From Actinomycetota bacterium (GTDB taxonomy: Bacteria; Actinomycetota; Acidimicrobiia; Acidimicrobiales; Aldehydirespiratoraceae): a DNA stretch of 41,433 bases. Every line of letters starts with the position of its first letter. Position 1 is the stretch's first letter. The notes below the pieces were generated by a model. It searched no databases. It was not told the origin of the DNA and worked only from the letters and a program-made list of their open reading frames with translations. The stretch is from positions 1-41,433 of the forward strand of contig JAACCU010000207.1 of the NCBI GenBank assembly GCA_009937405.1. The letters run 5' to 3'. The position numbers and the translations under genes were made by a program. Positions 4,985 through 24,152 of the stretch are shown in pieces.

Positions 4985-5650
4985 ATGCGTCTCGTTGTCG
5001 CCGAGTGCACCGTTGACTATGACGGGCGCCTCCAAGCTCATCTCCCCGCCGCCACCCGCCTCGTCATGGTGAAAGCCGATGGTTGCGTGGCCATTCACGC
5101 CGATGGCGGGGCTTACAAGCCGCTCAACTGGATGAACGCCCCCAACCGGCTCAATGAAGATCCTGAAGCCGGCATATGGACTGTCACGAGCCCCAAAGGC
5201 GAGGTCCTCATCATCACGTTCCACAACATCGTGAGCGATACCGCTCACGACATGGGATCCGACCCCGGCTTACAGAAGGACGGCGTCGAAGCACACCTCC
5301 AGAAGCTTCTGGCCGACGACCCGACCTATATCGCCGAAGGATTGAGGCTTGTCCGCCGGGAGTACCCGACCGACATCGGTCCCGTCGATCTCATGTGCCG
5401 AGACGAGGACGGCAAAGCCGTAGCAGTGGAGATCAAACGACGCGGCGAAATCGACGGTGTCGAGCAACTGACCCGCTATCTCGATTTCCTGAACCGCGAC
5501 CCCCTGTTGCGGCCAGTCCGAGGCATCTATGTTGCTCAGGAGATCAAGCCGCAGGCCAAGGTGCTCGCCACCGATCGCGGCATCGATTGGATTGAAGTCG
5601 ACTATGACGAACTGCGAGGCATCGAGTCACCCAACCTGAAGCTTTTCTGA
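4985..5650 (+). CDS. nucS: Endonuclease NucS (non-canonical mismatch repair)
   Basis: [33 protein letters not shown]...YKPLNWM, C-terminal nuclease domain [34 protein letters not shown]. Confidence 0.93.
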
Positions 5651-9450: not shown

Positions 9451-10224
9451 ATGAACATCAAGGACTCAGTAGTCGTGGTGACCGGCGCGGCAAGCGGAAT
9501 CGGACGGGCGATGGCTCGACGATTCGCCGCTGACGGCGCCGGCACCGTCGTTGTAGCCGACCTCGATGGCGATGGCGCTGCCGCGGTAGCCCGCGAAATC
9601 GGCGGTCGAGCTGAGACCCTCGATGTCACTGATGAGGATGCCCAGCTCGCCATGATCAATCGCACCGAAGCGGAGTGGGGCCCGATCGAGCTCTGGTGCG
9701 GCAATGCAGGCGTCGCCAGCAACGGTGGCCTCGAGCTCGACAATAAGGCGTGGGAGTTCAACTGGCAGGTAAACGTGATGGCCCACGTCATCACGGGTCG
9801 TCACATGATCCCTCGTTGGGTCGAACGAGGCTCTGGCCATTTCCTCATCACCGCCTCGGCCGCAGGGCTACTCACCAACCTCGGCACTGCGCCCTACGCC
9901 GTGACCAAGCACGGGGCAGTGGCGCTCGCCGAATGGATTGCGATCACCCACGGCGATGACGGTGTTCGAGTTTCTTGTCTGTGTCCCCAGGGGGTTCGAA
10001 CACCGATGACCGAAGCCGACGGCGAGATGGCCATCGAGGTCGTCAAAGCGATGGGCATGATCGAACCCGAGGAAGTCGCCGACTGTGTTGCCGCAGGGAT
10101 CGCCAACGACGATTTCCTGATCCTTCCCCACCCCGAAGTCTCCCGGTATGAGCAACGGCGTACCGGCGATCGCCAACGATGGCTGTCCGGCATGCGCAAG
10201 CTGCAGGCAACCCTGTCGCGATGA
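9451..10224 (+). CDS. SDR family oxidoreductase
   Basis: VVVTGAASGIGRAMARRFA, GNAGVASNGGL, YAVTKHGAVALAEW. Confidence 0.92.
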   Translation: MNIKDSVVVVTGAASGIGRAMARRFAADGAGTVVVADLDGDGAAAVAREIGGRAETLDVTDEDAQLAMINRTEAEWGPIELWCGNAGVASNGGLELDNKAWEFNWQVNVMAHVITGRHMIPRWVERGSGHFLITASAAGLLTNLGTAPYAVTKHGAVALAEWIAITHGDDGVRVSCLCPQGVRTPMTEADGEMAIEVVKAMGMIEPEEVADCVAAGIANDDFLILPHPEVSRYEQRRTGDRQRWLSGMRKLQATLSR

Positions 10225-11294
10225 GCTTGGACCCCGCTACCGCGGCCGTCTACCAGGCCAATGCACGTGAGTGGACCAAGGCGCGCGTCGGCAAGGACGT
10301 TTCCGCTGCTGCTCGCTTGATGGCCCGTGATCCTGGGGAGGGTCCAATTCTCGACATTGGGTGTGGGCCCGGCTACTTCTTAGCTGAGTTGCCTCAGGGC
10401 TCTATCGGCCTTGACCCAACGGTGGGCTTCCTTGAGTTGCTTGGCGATCGAGTGCCCGGTGCGCTCGGTGTGCGAGGTGAAGCGGGGGCCTTACCCATCC
10501 GATCTGCATCGATCGGTGGAGTCCTGGCAAATGCCGTCTACCAACACTTGCACCGTCATGACCTGCCGATGGCATTCGCCGATCTCCACCGCGTTCTCCA
10601 ACTCGATGCACCAGCCGAGATCATCATCTTCAGTGGTGATAGCGACATGGTCTACACAGATGCCACCGACTCCTTCCCTGGACGGGGCTATTCGTTCTGG
10701 CCTGCCGATCGTTTCCGCGACGTCCTGGTCGGTGCCGGGTTCCTGATCGAGACCTTCGAGGATCGCGACGCCGACCAATGGCCACCGTTGCTTGCGGGCG
10801 TGCGTCGTTCTCGCACGCTCCCCGACATTGTTGGTCCCGACATGAAGTTGCTCGTCTGTGGCTTGAACCCATCGGTCTACTCAGCTGACGTCGCCGTGGG
10901 CTTCGGCCGACCCGGCAATCGCTTCTGGCCGGCTGCGCTCGCAGCAGGCCTCGTCACGCTGGATCGCGATCCACGTCATGCTCTTGTGAACCATGGGGTG
11001 GGGATGACCGACCTAGTAAAACGGGCCACACCGCGCGCCGATGATCTCTCTCGGGACGAATATGCCGATGGCGTCGCCCGCCTTGATCGCCTGTGCGAAT
11101 GGCTTGAGCCCGAGGTGATCTGCATGGTCGGCCTTGCTGGCTGGCGGGCCGCCGTGAACCGCAAAGCTGCCGCAGGGTGGCAGGAAGAAACCTTGGGCGG
11201 GCGTCCCGTTTATGTCATGCCGTCTACGAGCGGCCTGAACGCCCACTCCAGCCTTGATGACCTGACCGAGCACCTCCGCGTGGCCACGAACTAA
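10221..11294 (+). CDS. Fusion protein: SAM-dependent methyltransferase domain plus Mug/TDG-type mismatch-specific DNA glycosylase
   Basis: N-terminal ILDIGCGPGYFLAELP...GLDPTVGFL (class I MTase). C-terminal KLLVCGLNPSVYSADVAVGFGRPGNRFWPAALAAGLV...VMPSTSGLNAHSS (Mug motifs). One uninterrupted frame; ATGA overlap with the SDR stop. Confidence 0.88.
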   Translation: MSLDPATAAVYQANAREWTKARVGKDVSAAARLMARDPGEGPILDIGCGPGYFLAELPQGSIGLDPTVGFLELLGDRVPGALGVRGEAGALPIRSASIGGVLANAVYQHLHRHDLPMAFADLHRVLQLDAPAEIIIFSGDSDMVYTDATDSFPGRGYSFWPADRFRDVLVGAGFLIETFEDRDADQWPPLLAGVRRSRTLPDIVGPDMKLLVCGLNPSVYSADVAVGFGRPGNRFWPAALAAGLVTLDRDPRHALVNHGVGMTDLVKRATPRADDLSRDEYADGVARLDRLCEWLEPEVICMVGLAGWRAAVNRKAAAGWQEETLGGRPVYVMPSTSGLNAHSSLDDLTEHLRVATN

Positions 11295-17267: not shown

Positions 17268-20200
17268 TCATCGAAAGTCCCGAGACGGCAGCGTCTTGAT
17301 GACCGGTAGCGGCTCGATCTTGTCAGCCACCACATTGATCACCCCTTCCTCCTTCTCTAGACGGCCTCTAATAAGCAGCGCTGGCGCGCCCCGAGCCGCC
17401 TTCTTGTATCGCTGCCAGCAACCCTTCGAGATCACGACATTGATGAGCCCGGTCTCGTCCTCGAGGTTCAGGAACGTGGTGCCGCCCGCAGTGGCAGGCC
17501 GTTGACGATGGGTGACCACACCGCCAACGAAGACCCGTTCGCCATCTGGATGATCAACCAGCCCCGTGGCCATGACGACCCCGATCTTGGTGAGCTCGTC
17601 ACGAATGAAGATCGTGGGATGACCATCGGGGGCAATGCCCGTTGCCCACAAGTCGGCATGCGCGGTCTCCTCTGGCGACATTCCCGGCAGGGTCGGCGCA
17701 TCGATGCCGGTGATGATCCCGGGTAGACGATCCGCTGAGGTCTGCGCCATCGCCCCTGCAGTCCACAACGCAGACCGCCGGTCAATGCCAAAGCAGCCGA
17801 ACGCTCCCGCCGTGGCCAGCGCTTCCAAAATCGGCAGCGACAGCTTCGGCACACGACGTCGCAGATCCTCCACCGATGTATACGGGCGTCCCGCTGAAAT
17901 CTCCTCGGCCAAATCGGCCCCGATCCCCCGCACATAGCCAAGACCAAGGCGAACCTCGGCTTCCCCATCACCTTCGAGGCTGGCCGAGGCCGCAGACGCA
18001 TTGAGGTCCGGCGTATGCACCGCCACGCCATGGCGTCGAGCATCGCCCACCAGTGTGTGCGGCGACCAGAACCCCATTGGTTGGGCATTGAGCAGAGCTG
18101 CACAGAATGCGGCCGGGTAGTGATACTTGATCCACGACGAGGCGTAGACAAGATACGAAAACGACACGGAGTGGCTTTCGGGAAAGCAGTAGTTGGCAAA
18201 CGCGGCCAGCTTCAACCAGATCTGCTCGCCGAGCTCGTCGTCGATCCCGTTGTCTCGCATGCCGGCAAAGAAGCGTTCCTTCAGCTGCTCCATGCGTTCA
18301 CGACTGCGCTTCGATCCGATGGCTTGGCGCAGCTTGTCGGCCTCGGACGGCGTGAAGTTGCCGACATCGATAGCGATCTGCATCAGCTGTTCTTGAAACA
18401 GGGGCACACCAAGCGTCTTGGCCAATGCATTCTCCAGCAATGGATGGAGATAGGTGACCGGTTCGAGTCCGTTGCGGCGGCGGATGTAGGGGTGCACTGA
18501 TCCGCCCTGGATCGGGCCTGGGCGAATGAGTGCCACCTCCACTACCAGGTCGTAGAAGCAGCGGGGCTTGAGGCGAGGCAGGGTGGCCATCTGGGCCCGG
18601 GATTCGATCTGGAAGACGCCGATCGTGTCGGCCTTCTGGAGCATGTCGTAGACCTCTGACTCCTGGGGGAGCGCGGCCAGATCAATATCGACACCGTGAA
18701 AGTCACGGATGAAGTCGATGGCGTAGTGCAGGGCCGACAACATTCCGAGGCCGAGGAGATCGAACTTCACGAGCCCGGCGGCGGCACAGTCATCCTTGTC
18801 CCATTGCAGGACGCTGCGGTTCGGCATACGCCCCCATTCGACGGGACACACCTCGATCACCGGGCGATCACACATGACCATGCCGCCGGAATGAATGCCG
18901 AGGTGACGGGGGAAATGCTCGACCTCTGCCGCCAACTCCATCACTTGAAGCGGAATCGATGTGTCGGAATCGACAGCTCCGGCTTGCGCCATACGGTCGG
19001 AGACATTTCGCCACCCGTCGACCTGCTTGGAGAACGCGTCCTGCTGGCCCTGGGCGTACCCCAAGGCCTTGGCCATGTCTCGAATCGCCGATTTCGAGCG
19101 GTAGCTGATGACGTTCGCGACCTGGGCGGTGTGGTGGCGACCATGACGTTCATAGACGTATTGGATGACCTCCTCGCGACGGTCGCTTTCGATGTCGATA
19201 TCGATGTCGGGTGGTCCGTCACGTTCTGGCGACAGGAAGCGTTCGAACAACAGGCTGAGGGAGACGGCATCGGCGTTAGTGATGCCGAGGGCGAAACAGA
19301 CCGCAGAATTGGCAGCCGAGCCCCGGCCCTGGCAGAGGATGTCGGACTTGCCGCAAAAGTCGACAATGTCCCAGACAACAAGGAAGTAACCGGGAAACCC
19401 GAGCTGGTCAATCAGGGCGAGCTCTCGGTCGAGTTGGGCCCATGCTCCCTCGACCCGCTCGGCTTCACGCGAGCCATAGCGACGGGTGCCGCCTTCTTCC
19501 ACAAGTCGACGGAGAAATTTTATCTCGCTCAACCCGTCGGGGCACGGGTACGGCGGAAGGTTAGGTGCCACCAGTGAGAGGTCAAACGCACACTCGAGTC
19601 CGAGTGCAGCGGCTCGTTCGACAACCCCGGGGTAACGAGCGAAGCGGGCGGCCTGCTCCTCACCAGATCGCAAGGGCATACCGGCGGGTGGAAGCCAGCC
19701 GTCGATCTCATCAAGGCTGCGCCGGGCTCGAACTGCAGCCAAGGCCGAGGCCAAGCGGTTACGAGCGACTGAGTGGTGGTGGGCGTTGGCGGTGGCGAGG
19801 ATGTCGACGCCTGCGGCCACAGCCAGCTGTGCCATCCCGTCGTTGCGAACCGAGTCGGCGGGCATCCCGTGGTCCCACAGCTCGACGAACACGTTTGGTC
19901 GACCGAAGTCGCTGACGAGACGGTCAAGTTCGCGCCGGGCTGCTGCGGGTCCCTGGTTCACCAGTGCCGCTGGCACCGGCCCTTTCCGGCACGCGGTGAG
20001 CACAGCCCAGTGATCACCCGAGCCTGTGCCACCTAGCTCGACAAGCCGTTCATACGGGATGCGGGGTGCCCCCTTCTCCCCCGCCAACTGGCCTTCGCTG
20101 ATCGCTCGGGCGAGCAAGGCATAGCCCCGTGGGTCACGGGCAAGAATGACGAGGTGCTGACCGTGGGGATCAGGCGGGCCCGCACGATTCAGATCTGCTG

Positions 20201-20633
20201 AGGTCAGCGGTGATGCCGAACGATCCGCCCGGTCCCCGGGTGGCGCCAGCAACGTGAGCTCGGCGCCGAAGATCGTTGGCAGGCCAATCGCCTTGGCGGC
20301 TTCGGAGAATCGGACCACGCCGTAAAACCCGTTGTGGTCAGTGAGCGCCAGTGCTTCGAGCCCGAGCCGAGCTGCTTCCTCGGCTAACTCCTCAGGGCGT
20401 GAGGCACCATCGAGGAATGAGAAGTTGGAGTGGCAGTGCAGTTCCGCGTAGGGAACTCGCCCGCGCGTTCGAACTGGCTCGGCGGGTGGCGTGTAGTCGC
20501 CCCGCTTGCGGGTCCAGGCCGGGCTATCGCCGCCGTCTCCCTCCCACAACTCCCGGACACGGCCCGTCGTCGGACGATCAGACAGAGTCTGCTCGAGGTC
20601 CTTCCACGGCACGTTCGGACTGTTCCATCCCAC
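17268..20633 (-). CDS. dnaE2: Error-prone DNA polymerase DnaE2
   Basis: 1121 aa. PHP domain AELHCHSNFSFLDGAS...LALTDHNGFYGVVRF, Pol III alpha-type PDIDIDIESDRREEVIQYVYERHGR, C-terminal OB fold. Confidence 0.95.
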   Translation of the reverse strand: MGWNSPNVPWKDLEQTLSDRPTTGRVRELWEGDGGDSPAWTRKRGDYTPPAEPVRTRGRVPYAELHCHSNFSFLDGASRPEELAEEAARLGLEALALTDHNGFYGVVRFSEAAKAIGLPTIFGAELTLLAPPGDRADRSASPLTSADLNRAGPPDPHGQHLVILARDPRGYALLARAISEGQLAGEKGAPRIPYERLVELGGTGSGDHWAVLTACRKGPVPAALVNQGPAAARRELDRLVSDFGRPNVFVELWDHGMPADSVRNDGMAQLAVAAGVDILATANAHHHSVARNRLASALAAVRARRSLDEIDGWLPPAGMPLRSGEEQAARFARYPGVVERAAALGLECAFDLSLVAPNLPPYPCPDGLSEIKFLRRLVEEGGTRRYGSREAERVEGAWAQLDRELALIDQLGFPGYFLVVWDIVDFCGKSDILCQGRGSAANSAVCFALGITNADAVSLSLLFERFLSPERDGPPDIDIDIESDRREEVIQYVYERHGRHHTAQVANVISYRSKSAIRDMAKALGYAQGQQDAFSKQVDGWRNVSDRMAQAGAVDSDTSIPLQVMELAAEVEHFPRHLGIHSGGMVMCDRPVIEVCPVEWGRMPNRSVLQWDKDDCAAAGLVKFDLLGLGMLSALHYAIDFIRDFHGVDIDLAALPQESEVYDMLQKADTIGVFQIESRAQMATLPRLKPRCFYDLVVEVALIRPGPIQGGSVHPYIRRRNGLEPVTYLHPLLENALAKTLGVPLFQEQLMQIAIDVGNFTPSEADKLRQAIGSKRSRERMEQLKERFFAGMRDNGIDDELGEQIWLKLAAFANYCFPESHSVSFSYLVYASSWIKYHYPAAFCAALLNAQPMGFWSPHTLVGDARRHGVAVHTPDLNASAASASLEGDGEAEVRLGLGYVRGIGADLAEEISAGRPYTSVEDLRRRVPKLSLPILEALATAGAFGCFGIDRRSALWTAGAMAQTSADRLPGIITGIDAPTLPGMSPEETAHADLWATGIAPDGHPTIFIRDELTKIGVVMATGLVDHPDGERVFVGGVVTHRQRPATAGGTTFLNLEDETGLINVVISKGCWQRYKKAARGAPALLIRGRLEKEEGVINVVADKIEPLPVIKTLPSRDFR

Positions 20634-20647
20634 ATCTTTGACCGTAG

Positions 20648-20663
20648 ACGAACATTTGTTCGT
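20648..20663. promoter_or_regulatory. LexA/SOS box upstream of dnaE2
   Basis: Perfect palindrome ACGAACATTTGTTCGT containing actinobacterial/Gram-positive CGAACNNNNGTTCG, about 15 nt from the dnaE2 start. Confidence 0.92.
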
Positions 20664-20666
20664 TTA

Positions 20667-21854
20667 CTACATGGAATCTGGTTCGTGTTCGAGGGTCAGA
20701 TAGACGGTTCGAACGGCGAGAGCTTCGCGAACTTCAGCAGTCATGTCCTCGGCAAACTCTGCTCGATAGGCCTCATCGGTCACCACCTGAACAGCAAACT
20801 GCAGACCCGACATCATGCCAATAAAGGCCGACACCAAAATCAGCTGCCGGGTAAAGACCAGCTCTCCGCCCAGCACGTTCCAGTAAAGCGCCCAGTCCGC
20901 AGACCGGGTCAGTTCGGTGGCCGTCGTCCACTGCACGAGGGTTCCCTCTCGCACCGTCAGCAAACCAAAGACGATATAGAACGCCGTAATCACGACCGCC
21001 ACAAGCGCAATCTGTATCGCCTGGGCGACGAACAGCAACATGCCGACATTGAACTCGGCACGATGTCCGAGCGCGGGAGCGCCCGGCGGCTTCTCATCAT
21101 CTCCCGGCACCAACCCCTCGACCGGAGTATCGACACATCGGCCCCGAACATCCGCCCAATCATCGAACCGAGCGAGATCGACGGTGATCCGCCGCACCGA
21201 AAACACGACAAATGCTGCACCGATCCCCGTGATCAGTACTGACACGAGCCCGAAGTACGCAAGGGTGAAGTCGTTGGCCACCTGCCACATCTCGGCGTTG
21301 AGAAAGATAAACGCGGAGAAGACGAGAAGGATCGGCAACGACTTCATGGCAAGCGTGGCAACATCGCCGATCTGACGGGTGACCTGCCCGAGCGACCACC
21401 GCATCATCGGGAACAGGCCCCATGAGGTGACGACATAGGCAAGACCAAGGATCACAAGATTCGAGACCAGGATCGTGACGAGGTTGTCGCCGACCGCACT
21501 CTCCGAGCCGATCGCCGTCGGCACAAGCGGAAGACCCAGATAGAGGATCAACTCAACGAGTCCGACGCTGTTGGGCAACTGCAGCGGCCGTCGGCCACGA
21601 AAGCGATTTACGAGGGCAAGCGCTGCCACCATCGCTCCAACGCCCGCAATAAAGGCGACGAGTTGGCTCCAGCCATTCCAGCGATCACCAAAGGCAAGGA
21701 ACAACTCAGCAAAGACCACGATTGTGAGGAAGGGCGCCGTGCGGGTGAGCACGTCCTCGGTGGCCGAATAGTCATCGATCAGGTGCGGCAACCCGCGGCG
21801 CACAAACCAGCGCTCACAGCGACCACGCTGGATGATCTTTGAAGGCTCGGTCAT
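20667..21854 (-). CDS. Polytopic integral membrane protein, uncharacterised, inside the SOS mutasome cassette
   Basis: 395 aa with about 8 hydrophobic segments; 18 nt after the imuB stop on the same strand. Confidence 0.85.
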   Translation of the reverse strand: MTEPSKIIQRGRCERWFVRRGLPHLIDDYSATEDVLTRTAPFLTIVVFAELFLAFGDRWNGWSQLVAFIAGVGAMVAALALVNRFRGRRPLQLPNSVGLVELILYLGLPLVPTAIGSESAVGDNLVTILVSNLVILGLAYVVTSWGLFPMMRWSLGQVTRQIGDVATLAMKSLPILLVFSAFIFLNAEMWQVANDFTLAYFGLVSVLITGIGAAFVVFSVRRITVDLARFDDWADVRGRCVDTPVEGLVPGDDEKPPGAPALGHRAEFNVGMLLFVAQAIQIALVAVVITAFYIVFGLLTVREGTLVQWTTATELTRSADWALYWNVLGGELVFTRQLILVSAFIGMMSGLQFAVQVVTDEAYRAEFAEDMTAEVREALAVRTVYLTLEHEPDSM

Positions 21855-21872
21855 TGCACCATGATGGTCGCC

Positions 21873-23429
21873 TCAGTCCCACACCGCGGTGACCCACCAC
21901 TGGCCTCCTTCAAGCGTGAGCATGCGGGCAACACCATCGCTGGTGACGATCTGAAAGCGGGCCTGGCGTCGATGTGTCTCAGCGTCCCACCAGCGTTCGT
22001 CGATCGGCCACGGACCGGCCCACGCCGCAACCTCAGCCCGGGTGTGATTGTTGCGGAGTTCGACAGGAGGCGCCGAAAGCAAACCTCGACCATCGACCTG
22101 CACGGGTTCACCCGCCTCATCCACCACCTCGACCACTCTTGGCGCAGCGACCACCCTCGTGGGTGATGGAGTTGGCAAGCCACCCGGCCAAGGAGGCTGC
22201 TCAGAGTCGTCGAACAAGGTGCGGCCTCGCAGCTCGACGGTGGCCGCCGGCACGAGCATGAGCCGCTCACCAAAATGACGCCCACCTCGTCGTTCCACAA
22301 CACGAACAGCATCGGCGCCGAGTTGGCCTTGAAGACGAGCAGCCACCCTCGCCGCTCGCTCATCGACCTCCGTCTCCCCTCCCCAGAATCCAAGCTGACG
22401 ACCCTTGGCGGCAATGAGTTCGTCAGGCATCAGCGACACCCGACTGATCCCCCCACTTGGACGGGTGGCGGCCGGCCCGTTGAGCCAGCCATCGAGTTGC
22501 CATCGCACCCGGTCAGCCACCGCCGCATCAGACAACGTGCCCTCGTGGCGCCAAAGCCGCACGAACTCCTCACCGAATTCGGTTTCAGCTTCAATCGCCA
22601 CTCGCACGCAGGTCACACCGGCACGCCCGAGACGCTGATGGAACTCATCGGCAAGGCTGCGGGCAACAAAGGCGACCCGGTCGACCTGGAGCGCTGGTGG
22701 ATCGATTTCGGCGCTCACCGACCAGTCAACGGGAGGGTGCCGCGCATCAGGGGGCCGTTCGTCGAGTCCTGACGCAAGCCGATGAGCGGCGAGACCCTCA
22801 GAGCCAAATCGGGCCAACACATCGGTGGCCGGTAGCGCGGCAAACGCGCCAAGCGTGCCGATACCGAGACGCACGAGCACATCGGCCAACTCTGGTCGCT
22901 CGAGCACGGCCACACGCATCGGCGCCAGGAACTCGGCGACCTCTCCTTGAGCGATCAGCCGGGTTGGCTGAGCCGCCCGGGCCGCAAGCTCTGCTGCGAA
23001 TGACCCATCGGCGATACCGATACGCACCTCTGTGCGGCCGTTTAACACCGTACCCATGGCCTCACGAATGAGGTCAGCGACCTTCTCGTCTCCACCGAAA
23101 TAGCGAGATGGACCCAGGGTGGTGACGGCACAGGTGCCAGGACGGATGATCTCGATACGAGGCGTGATGTTGTCGAGGGTGCCAATCACCGGTTCGAAGG
23201 TGCGAGCCTCTCGGGCTTCATCACGTTCGTGAAGCTGCAGGTCTGCACATCGGGCCTGGGCCACTCGACGCCGCAGCCCCCGCACAACGCCATGCTCACG
23301 GGCACTAGGCGACGACGCCACAATCCGGTTGGCGTGGACGACGGCCACTGGCTCATCGAGCGGTACACCTGTCGCCACAACTGGCCAATCGGGACACCAG
23401 GCAACAAGTGTCCGCACGGGGACGACCAT
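21873..23429 (-). CDS. imuB: ImuB, DNA polymerase Y-family protein
   Basis: VRTLVAWCPDWPVVATG...EPVAVVHANRIVASSPSAREHGVVRGLRRRVAQARC plus Y-family little-finger region; adjacent to imuA and dnaE2. Confidence 0.9.
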   Translation of the reverse strand: MVVPVRTLVAWCPDWPVVATGVPLDEPVAVVHANRIVASSPSAREHGVVRGLRRRVAQARCADLQLHERDEAREARTFEPVIGTLDNITPRIEIIRPGTCAVTTLGPSRYFGGDEKVADLIREAMGTVLNGRTEVRIGIADGSFAAELAARAAQPTRLIAQGEVAEFLAPMRVAVLERPELADVLVRLGIGTLGAFAALPATDVLARFGSEGLAAHRLASGLDERPPDARHPPVDWSVSAEIDPPALQVDRVAFVARSLADEFHQRLGRAGVTCVRVAIEAETEFGEEFVRLWRHEGTLSDAAVADRVRWQLDGWLNGPAATRPSGGISRVSLMPDELIAAKGRQLGFWGGETEVDERAARVAARLQGQLGADAVRVVERRGGRHFGERLMLVPAATVELRGRTLFDDSEQPPWPGGLPTPSPTRVVAAPRVVEVVDEAGEPVQVDGRGLLSAPPVELRNNHTRAEVAAWAGPWPIDERWWDAETHRRQARFQIVTSDGVARMLTLEGGQWWVTAVWD

Positions 23430-23432
23430 GAG

Positions 23433-24152
23433 TCAGCCCTGCGTAGCGAGGGCCGGTGCTTCGACGGGGACGAGCTCAGGCCGGCCCAGCGGACCAGGCA
23501 GCAACATGTCGGCCGATCGCGGTCGAGCCGATGCTCCTCGCCCGCCGCCGTTCACCGTCACCCGACGGGACTGCAACACCCCATGACCACGCCCAAGCCC
23601 CGACCACTTACTTTCGACAACCTCAAGCTGCACGTCTGCCCCTCTGGGCCAGCGACCATTGGTGCACACCAGCACCGACCCTCGTGCCCGCAGCCGCGCC
23701 GAAAGGCGCCGGGCCTCAGCATCACGGACCCGGTGACGGGGTGCCACCAACACGATGTCGACGGCGCCGACGAGCGCGGCAACTGCAGCACTCCACGACG
23801 ATGGCTCCGGGTCAACGACCAGCACTCGCTGGAGGGCAACCCCCACTTCCTCGGCAGCCGCAAGCCCAAGGTCCGGATCGCCAACTACGGCAACCCACGA
23901 ACCAGTCGTTGAGGCAGCCGCTGCGATAGCCAATGCCAGTGCGGTCGATCCCGAACCAGCAACTGACACCGTCGAGCCGCGCCGCAAACCTTCAGGGAAA
24001 AGGTCGATCAACTCAGCGAGAAGTGGCAATGTTCGTTCCCGGGCCAGCGCCATCGGAGCGACCCGGTCACTAACTAGTTGCAGCCTGACGCGCCGATCTG
24101 CGATTGCCTCGTCGGGGTCGACGACAGAGAGCAGCGACACCGGAGAAGCCAT
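23433..24152 (-). CDS. imuA: ImuA'-like RecA-fold protein
   Basis: ARERTLPLLAELIDLFPEGLRRGSTVSVAGSGSTALALAIAAAAS with degenerate Walker A; directly upstream of imuB. Confidence 0.85.
   Translation of the reverse strand: MASPVSLLSVVDPDEAIADRRVRLQLVSDRVAPMALARERTLPLLAELIDLFPEGLRRGSTVSVAGSGSTALALAIAAAASTTGSWVAVVGDPDLGLAAAEEVGVALQRVLVVDPEPSSWSAAVAALVGAVDIVLVAPRHRVRDAEARRLSARLRARGSVLVCTNGRWPRGADVQLEVVESKWSGLGRGHGVLQSRRVTVNGGGRGASARPRSADMLLPGPLGRPELVPVEAPALATQG

Follow-up and report, generated by a model that had tools for sequence, protein, structure and literature searches.

A gene in the 41,433-nucleotide stretch of DNA analysed here (the window) encodes a known DNA-repair family in an unusual form. 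A single protein carries a class I SAM methyltransferase fold (approximately residues 1-195) followed by a complete Mug/TDG-family DNA glycosylase (residues 196-357). The fusion is an ancient two-domain protein of one bacterial class, joined early in the Acidimicrobiia, and on many later occasions its methyltransferase fold was trimmed to the same half. Comparison of the sequences leads us to favour, with a probability of roughly two in three, a reading in which a Mug lineage was fused to a small-molecule-type methyltransferase and has conserved base excision, for which methyltransferase catalysis is not needed, while the half-fold would act as a structural or accessory module. The features of the locus are as follows.

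9451..10224, + strand: SDR-family oxidoreductase; its stop codon overlaps the start of the fusion gene (ATGA, 10221-10224)
10221..11294, + strand: methyltransferase-Mug fusion gene, an open frame of 357 amino acids plus stop
10221..10541, + strand: SAM-binding N-terminal half of the methyltransferase (residues 1-107), missing from reduced orthologues
10353..10373, + strand: methyltransferase motif I, DIGCGPG (residues 45-51)
10542..10805, + strand: C-terminal half of the methyltransferase fold (residues 108-195; helix D, strand 5, helix E, strands 6 and 7), the module found in most reduced orthologues
10806..11291, + strand: Mug/TDG-family DNA glycosylase domain (residues 196-357)
10860..10874, + strand: glycosylase motif 1, GLNPS, with catalytic Asn216 (N18 of E. 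coli Mug, N140 of human TDG)
11010..11012, + strand: Asp264, first residue of motif 3 (K68 of E. coli Mug, N191 of human TDG, N204/N123 of UNG)
11220..11240, + strand: glycosylase motif 2, PSTSGLN (PNPSGLN in ordinary Mug)

The initial annotation had described a single frame joining a methyltransferase-like domain to a Mug-type glycosylase, and the frame proved to be genuine. It is open throughout, and Pfam profiles match both parts above cut-off, Methyltransf_11 at residues 44-127 (E 9.7e-9) and UDG at residues 203-345 (E 8.8e-12). The sequence motifs quoted in that annotation are present in the protein, and the glycosylase is complete, as it had stated: the catalytic Asn is in place, and residues 201-353 match E. 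coli Mug in a PDB search (E 4.8e-20), with human TDG matching as well. The score against the NCBIfam Mug equivalog falls below the cut-off (85.7 of 144 bits). An in-frame ATG lies upstream at 10179; homologues favour the start at 10221. Codon-position GC is typical of coding DNA on both sides of the junction. A frameshift or assembly error near codon 210 had been named as a possible source of the fusion. Such an artefact is ruled out by copies of the same fusion in congeneric genomes, at 91%, 83% and 81% identity, and by its presence in many other genera and in other orders. Three UDG-superfamily genes were found in the window's own genome; one is the fusion, which is the sole Mug-type gene there and of which no second copy was found.

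Elsewhere in the window, a NucS/EndoMS mismatch endonuclease gene (4985-5650, + strand; NCBIfam 361 bits) lies five genes upstream of the fusion; it is found close to the fusion in only 8 loci. A mutagenesis cassette consisting of DnaE2 error-prone polymerase, a Y-family-polymerase-like (ImuB-type) gene and ImuA' (17268-24152, - strand) shares the window with NucS and the Mug fusion.

The two-domain architecture, which the initial annotation had suggested looking for in relatives, is indeed widely shared. Matches were found in 206 of 397 genomes of the order, and about 75 among the matches listed span the whole protein; a search of the class added at least 18 further full fusions, together with 9 shortened forms, from other orders. 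In the GTDB family to which the window belongs, genera g1, g4, g6, g7 and g9 carry the full fusion, and g3 and g8 the shortened form. No Mug-type gene of the fusion lineage was matched in genera g2, g5 and g10, whose genomes each have just one or two UDG-superfamily genes of other kinds. The fusion was not found outside the class Acidimicrobiia in a sample of the phylum, in which no match exceeded 46% identity and those seen were stand-alone Mugs. Searches of plasmids with the glycosylase domain and of phages with the whole protein likewise gave stand-alone Mugs only. The named records among the fusion matches are Acidimicrobiales or Acidimicrobiia metagenome genomes, and a literature search of papers outside subscription found none on a Mug-methyltransferase fusion.

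The full-length methyltransferase has the features of a class I SAM enzyme. Among 46 full-length members, Y11, D45, G47, G49, G51, L91, P92, H109, G171 and A172 are invariant and R155 and W160 nearly so; motif I has the form GxGxG, and the acidic residue at the end of strand 2 (D65) is kept in at least 90% of members. Within the window's genus the SAM-binding half shows a dN/dS of about 0.08, as low as that of the glycosylase, indicating purifying selection. The invariant SAM motif and this low ratio argue that SAM binding matters in the full-length lineages, and in lineages of the window's type the full SAM site may allow the module to bind SAM or to catalyse weakly; a real methylation reaction is conceivable there. 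Matches to methyltransferase families (Pfam, NCBIfam) are without exception weak, and most are to small-molecule types, in agreement with the initial annotation; the closest profiles are 3h2b, glucose O-methyltransferase, BioC/UbiE-like enzymes and the DVU_1556 family. The best PDB match, 3h2b, aligns over residues 39-180, sharing motif I, the LPxAL helix, the FSG of strand 5, a Trp and the AGF strand. It differs in being stand-alone in its PDB entry, the matched chain having no glycosylase domain. It is a SAM-dependent methyltransferase of C. glutamicum.

We fetched 100 loci for comparison; these were picked from search matches, and the proportions of the forms are not those of a random sample. 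The full methyltransferase is present in 49 of them (window included) and in one further locus with a frameshift; about half are shortened. Of the 50 shortened N-termini, 41 were matched at E<=1e-3 by an HMM of the C-terminal half (residues 108-194), which matched 0 of 1000 shuffles and no N-termini of ordinary Mugs. An HMM of the SAM-binding half (residues 5-107) matched none of the 50. In most of 32 clear cases the homology begins at residue 107-114, and the LPxxLxxxH and GAGF motifs are kept by 37 of 48 remnants but by 0 of 2400 shuffles. The dN/dS of the remnant is mostly 0.15-0.5, and the same remnant was recognised in 7 of the 9 shortened forms found across the class. Its predicted secondary structure comprises helix D, strand 5, helix E, strand 6 and strand 7. 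The standard class I methyltransferase fold has the strand order 3-2-1-4-5-7-6, in which strands 5, 7 and 6 are one contiguous edge. An AlphaFold2 model built from five sequences had a mean pLDDT of 49.5, a confidence too low to reveal an interface between methyltransferase and glycosylase, and was used for secondary structure alone. Three orthologues (L126, L143 and L147) have no detectable remnant, and the half-fold is therefore not essential everywhere. Neither the remnant nor the Asp at the base-recognition position, described below, appears in the initial annotation.

Two loci need separate mention. The frameshifted one (L121, G327:C52) is broken near residue 113 inside a full-length fusion gene; it is either a pseudogene or an assembly error, and was reclassified. 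One genome has two contig-end, fusion-type pieces with diverging N-termini, G044:C80:1-786 and G044:C5:63539-63979 (L123), which probably reflect strain variation or a broken assembly.

Loss of the SAM-binding half has occurred on at least ten occasions, with the other half usually staying attached. A tree of the glycosylase domain requires 25 changes between the full and reduced states; supported branches force at least 10 of these, and none of the bootstrap trees shows just one change. Both forms occur within 12 GTDB families and within three genera (g26, g33 and g39), and they have a common synteny, GGR-PAP2-SDR-Mug-LLM-nuclease-ChbG-mshB, in which the neighbours are geranylgeranyl-reductase-like, PAP2, SDR, LLM oxidoreductase, nuclease, ChbG-like and MshB-like genes. 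The change would have run from full to reduced, since the remnant is homologous to half of a whole methyltransferase. A methyltransferase split off as a separate gene was looked for in the reduced lineages and not found, either in the flanks or in 14 reduced-form genomes, where a search at E<=1e-20 found nothing of the fusion type elsewhere except one weak paralogue in G093. The initial annotation had named homologues always split into two genes as a refuting outcome; none was seen split, those observed being fused or shortened.

As roughly one in two of the orthologues examined lacks the SAM-binding half while occupying the same locus, methyltransferase catalysis appears dispensable, and the retention of the half with strands 5-7 after this loss makes a structural or accessory module its most likely role. 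The history that we propose begins with a Mug lineage specific to Acidimicrobiia, fused early behind a class I small-molecule-type SAM methyltransferase. A damaged or mispaired pyrimidine would be flipped into the glycosylase pocket, and the glycosidic bond would be cleaved by a water molecule oriented by Asn216. Many orthologues at the same locus have since lost strands 1-4 but retain helix D, strand 5, helix E and strands 6 and 7. This edge half-fold, directly before the glycosylase, might dock on the glycosylase, add to stability or contact DNA. We infer the glycosylase activity and its substrate, like the structural role of the half-fold, from these comparisons.

An unlikely but credible alternative is that two independent activities were joined by operon position, the methyltransferase (perhaps with the SDR) acting on a small metabolite and Mug repairing DNA, with the fusion doing no more than couple their expression. 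The small-molecule types among the nearest profiles, the conserved SDR directly upstream and the frequent loss of the methyltransferase domain, as expected of a passenger, all fit such an arrangement. However, a passenger would go whole and with random boundaries, whereas the same C-terminal half is mostly kept, and the SDR stays beside forms without the methyltransferase. The translational coupling pointed out in the initial annotation holds as far as the ATGA overlap and the conserved SDR neighbour are concerned, but since the SDR precedes full and reduced forms alike the coupling is not specific to the methyltransferase, and the SDR is ruled out as its dedicated partner.

The initial annotation also raised the idea that base methylation or demodification is linked to excision. 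In such a coupled enzyme, the methyltransferase would modify DNA, a base or an intermediate of repair, with the glycosylase acting on the product or its deaminated form. In favour of the idea, the window's lineage retains both domains intact and under purifying selection, with an invariant motif I, but we consider it very improbable. No DNA-methyltransferase family is among the Pfam and NCBIfam matches of the 46 full-length members, and inspection of the window's protein by eye, including the segment after strand 4 (NAVYQHLHRHDLP), found neither the amino-methyltransferase motif [DNS]PP[YFW] nor the C5-methyltransferase PC/ENV motif. There is no DNA-binding target-recognition domain, and the repeated losses removed the SAM-binding half and left the glycosylase intact. 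It is still harder to credit that the reduced form is ancestral, or that the two forms represent old paralogues, or alleles exchanged horizontally, and not the outcome of repeated deletion of the SAM half. One ancestral event would simply explain the near-constant boundary of the remnant, and many reduced forms lie in the root region of the tree. Yet a half-methyltransferase homologous to the C-terminal half of the whole cannot easily precede the whole, the forms alternate on the tree, within the same families and genera and at one syntenic locus, and there is one copy per genome.

The active site of the glycosylase is itself distinctive. No clade member lacks N216 of motif 1 (G-x-N-P), which was seen in each of the 99 from the order set and in each of the 27 others from the class. 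Position 264 is Asp in 124 of 126 clade members (99 of 99 in the order set, 25 of 27 in the class), the exceptions being Asn in L192 and L202; all 15 ordinary actinobacterial Mugs examined have Asn. The clade therefore departs from the Asn or Lys with which motif 3 typically begins in Mug/TDG enzymes, and on the tree its glycosylases form their own clade (support 100/100) apart from ordinary Mugs. The fold, order of motifs, catalytic Asn, PGNRFW motif and C-terminal motif 2 are shared with E. coli Mug and human TDG, and S271 of human TDG corresponds to a Ser at residue 335 of the fusion. The fusion differs from both in having Asp264 for Lys68/Asn191, and its clade in having an N-terminal methyltransferase or half-methyltransferase. 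Lys68 of E. coli Mug is the first residue of motif 3 and is equivalent to N91 of UDGX (PMC10776899); the corresponding Asn191 of human TDG contacts the base edge (PMC3488261).

DrMUG of Deinococcus radiodurans (PDB 2c2p/2c2q) also has an Asp at the start of motif 3 (D84), with a Lys three residues on, and the PSTS form of motif 2. An Asp here thus varies within the Mug/TDG family and does not disqualify the clade from membership. DrMUG belongs to a Deinococcus group known as MUG2, and reportedly still excises uracil. The fusion clade falls outside that group: it keeps Asn216, whereas motif 1 of DrMUG is GTAPS with no Asn; the catalytic Asp93 of DrMUG aligns with Ala273 of the fusion; and the two group separately on the tree. 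Asp264 is ruled out as a counterpart of Asp93, from which it lies nine residues apart. A DrMUG-like glycosylase without the motif 1 Asn (GLAAG) was seen on a Microvirga plasmid (L182, 544-1053, + strand).

In UNG, changing Asn to Asp at the matching position gives cytosine excision with uracil activity retained (PMC11289083, PMC3989344). The UNG mutants N204D and N123D resemble the fusion in this change at an equivalent base-recognition position, but they are laboratory mutants of family 1, whereas the Asp of the fusion is natural and in family 2. Since the same change makes UNG excise cytosine, an altered base specificity is predicted for the clade; as DrMUG has an Asp there too, Asp264 is no proof of it. 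It is a rather doubtful extension that the whole class swapped its ordinary Mug for an Asn-to-Asp lineage with an exapted half-methyltransferase as N-terminal module, one that would act on mispaired, oxidised or otherwise modified cytosine besides or instead of uracil.

These observations suggest that a worn-down methyltransferase survives as a structural component of a repair enzyme in which the residue that reads the base has changed too. The Acidimicrobiia would then have run the same experiment many times in parallel, cutting an enzyme fold to the same half and keeping it as an accessory domain on a different enzyme. Because the Asn-to-Asp change occurs in a large natural family, the base selectivity of Mug/TDG enzymes becomes directly testable on wild-type proteins, and the fate of the SAM-binding half cautions against assuming that a methyltransferase fused to another enzyme supplies a partner reaction.
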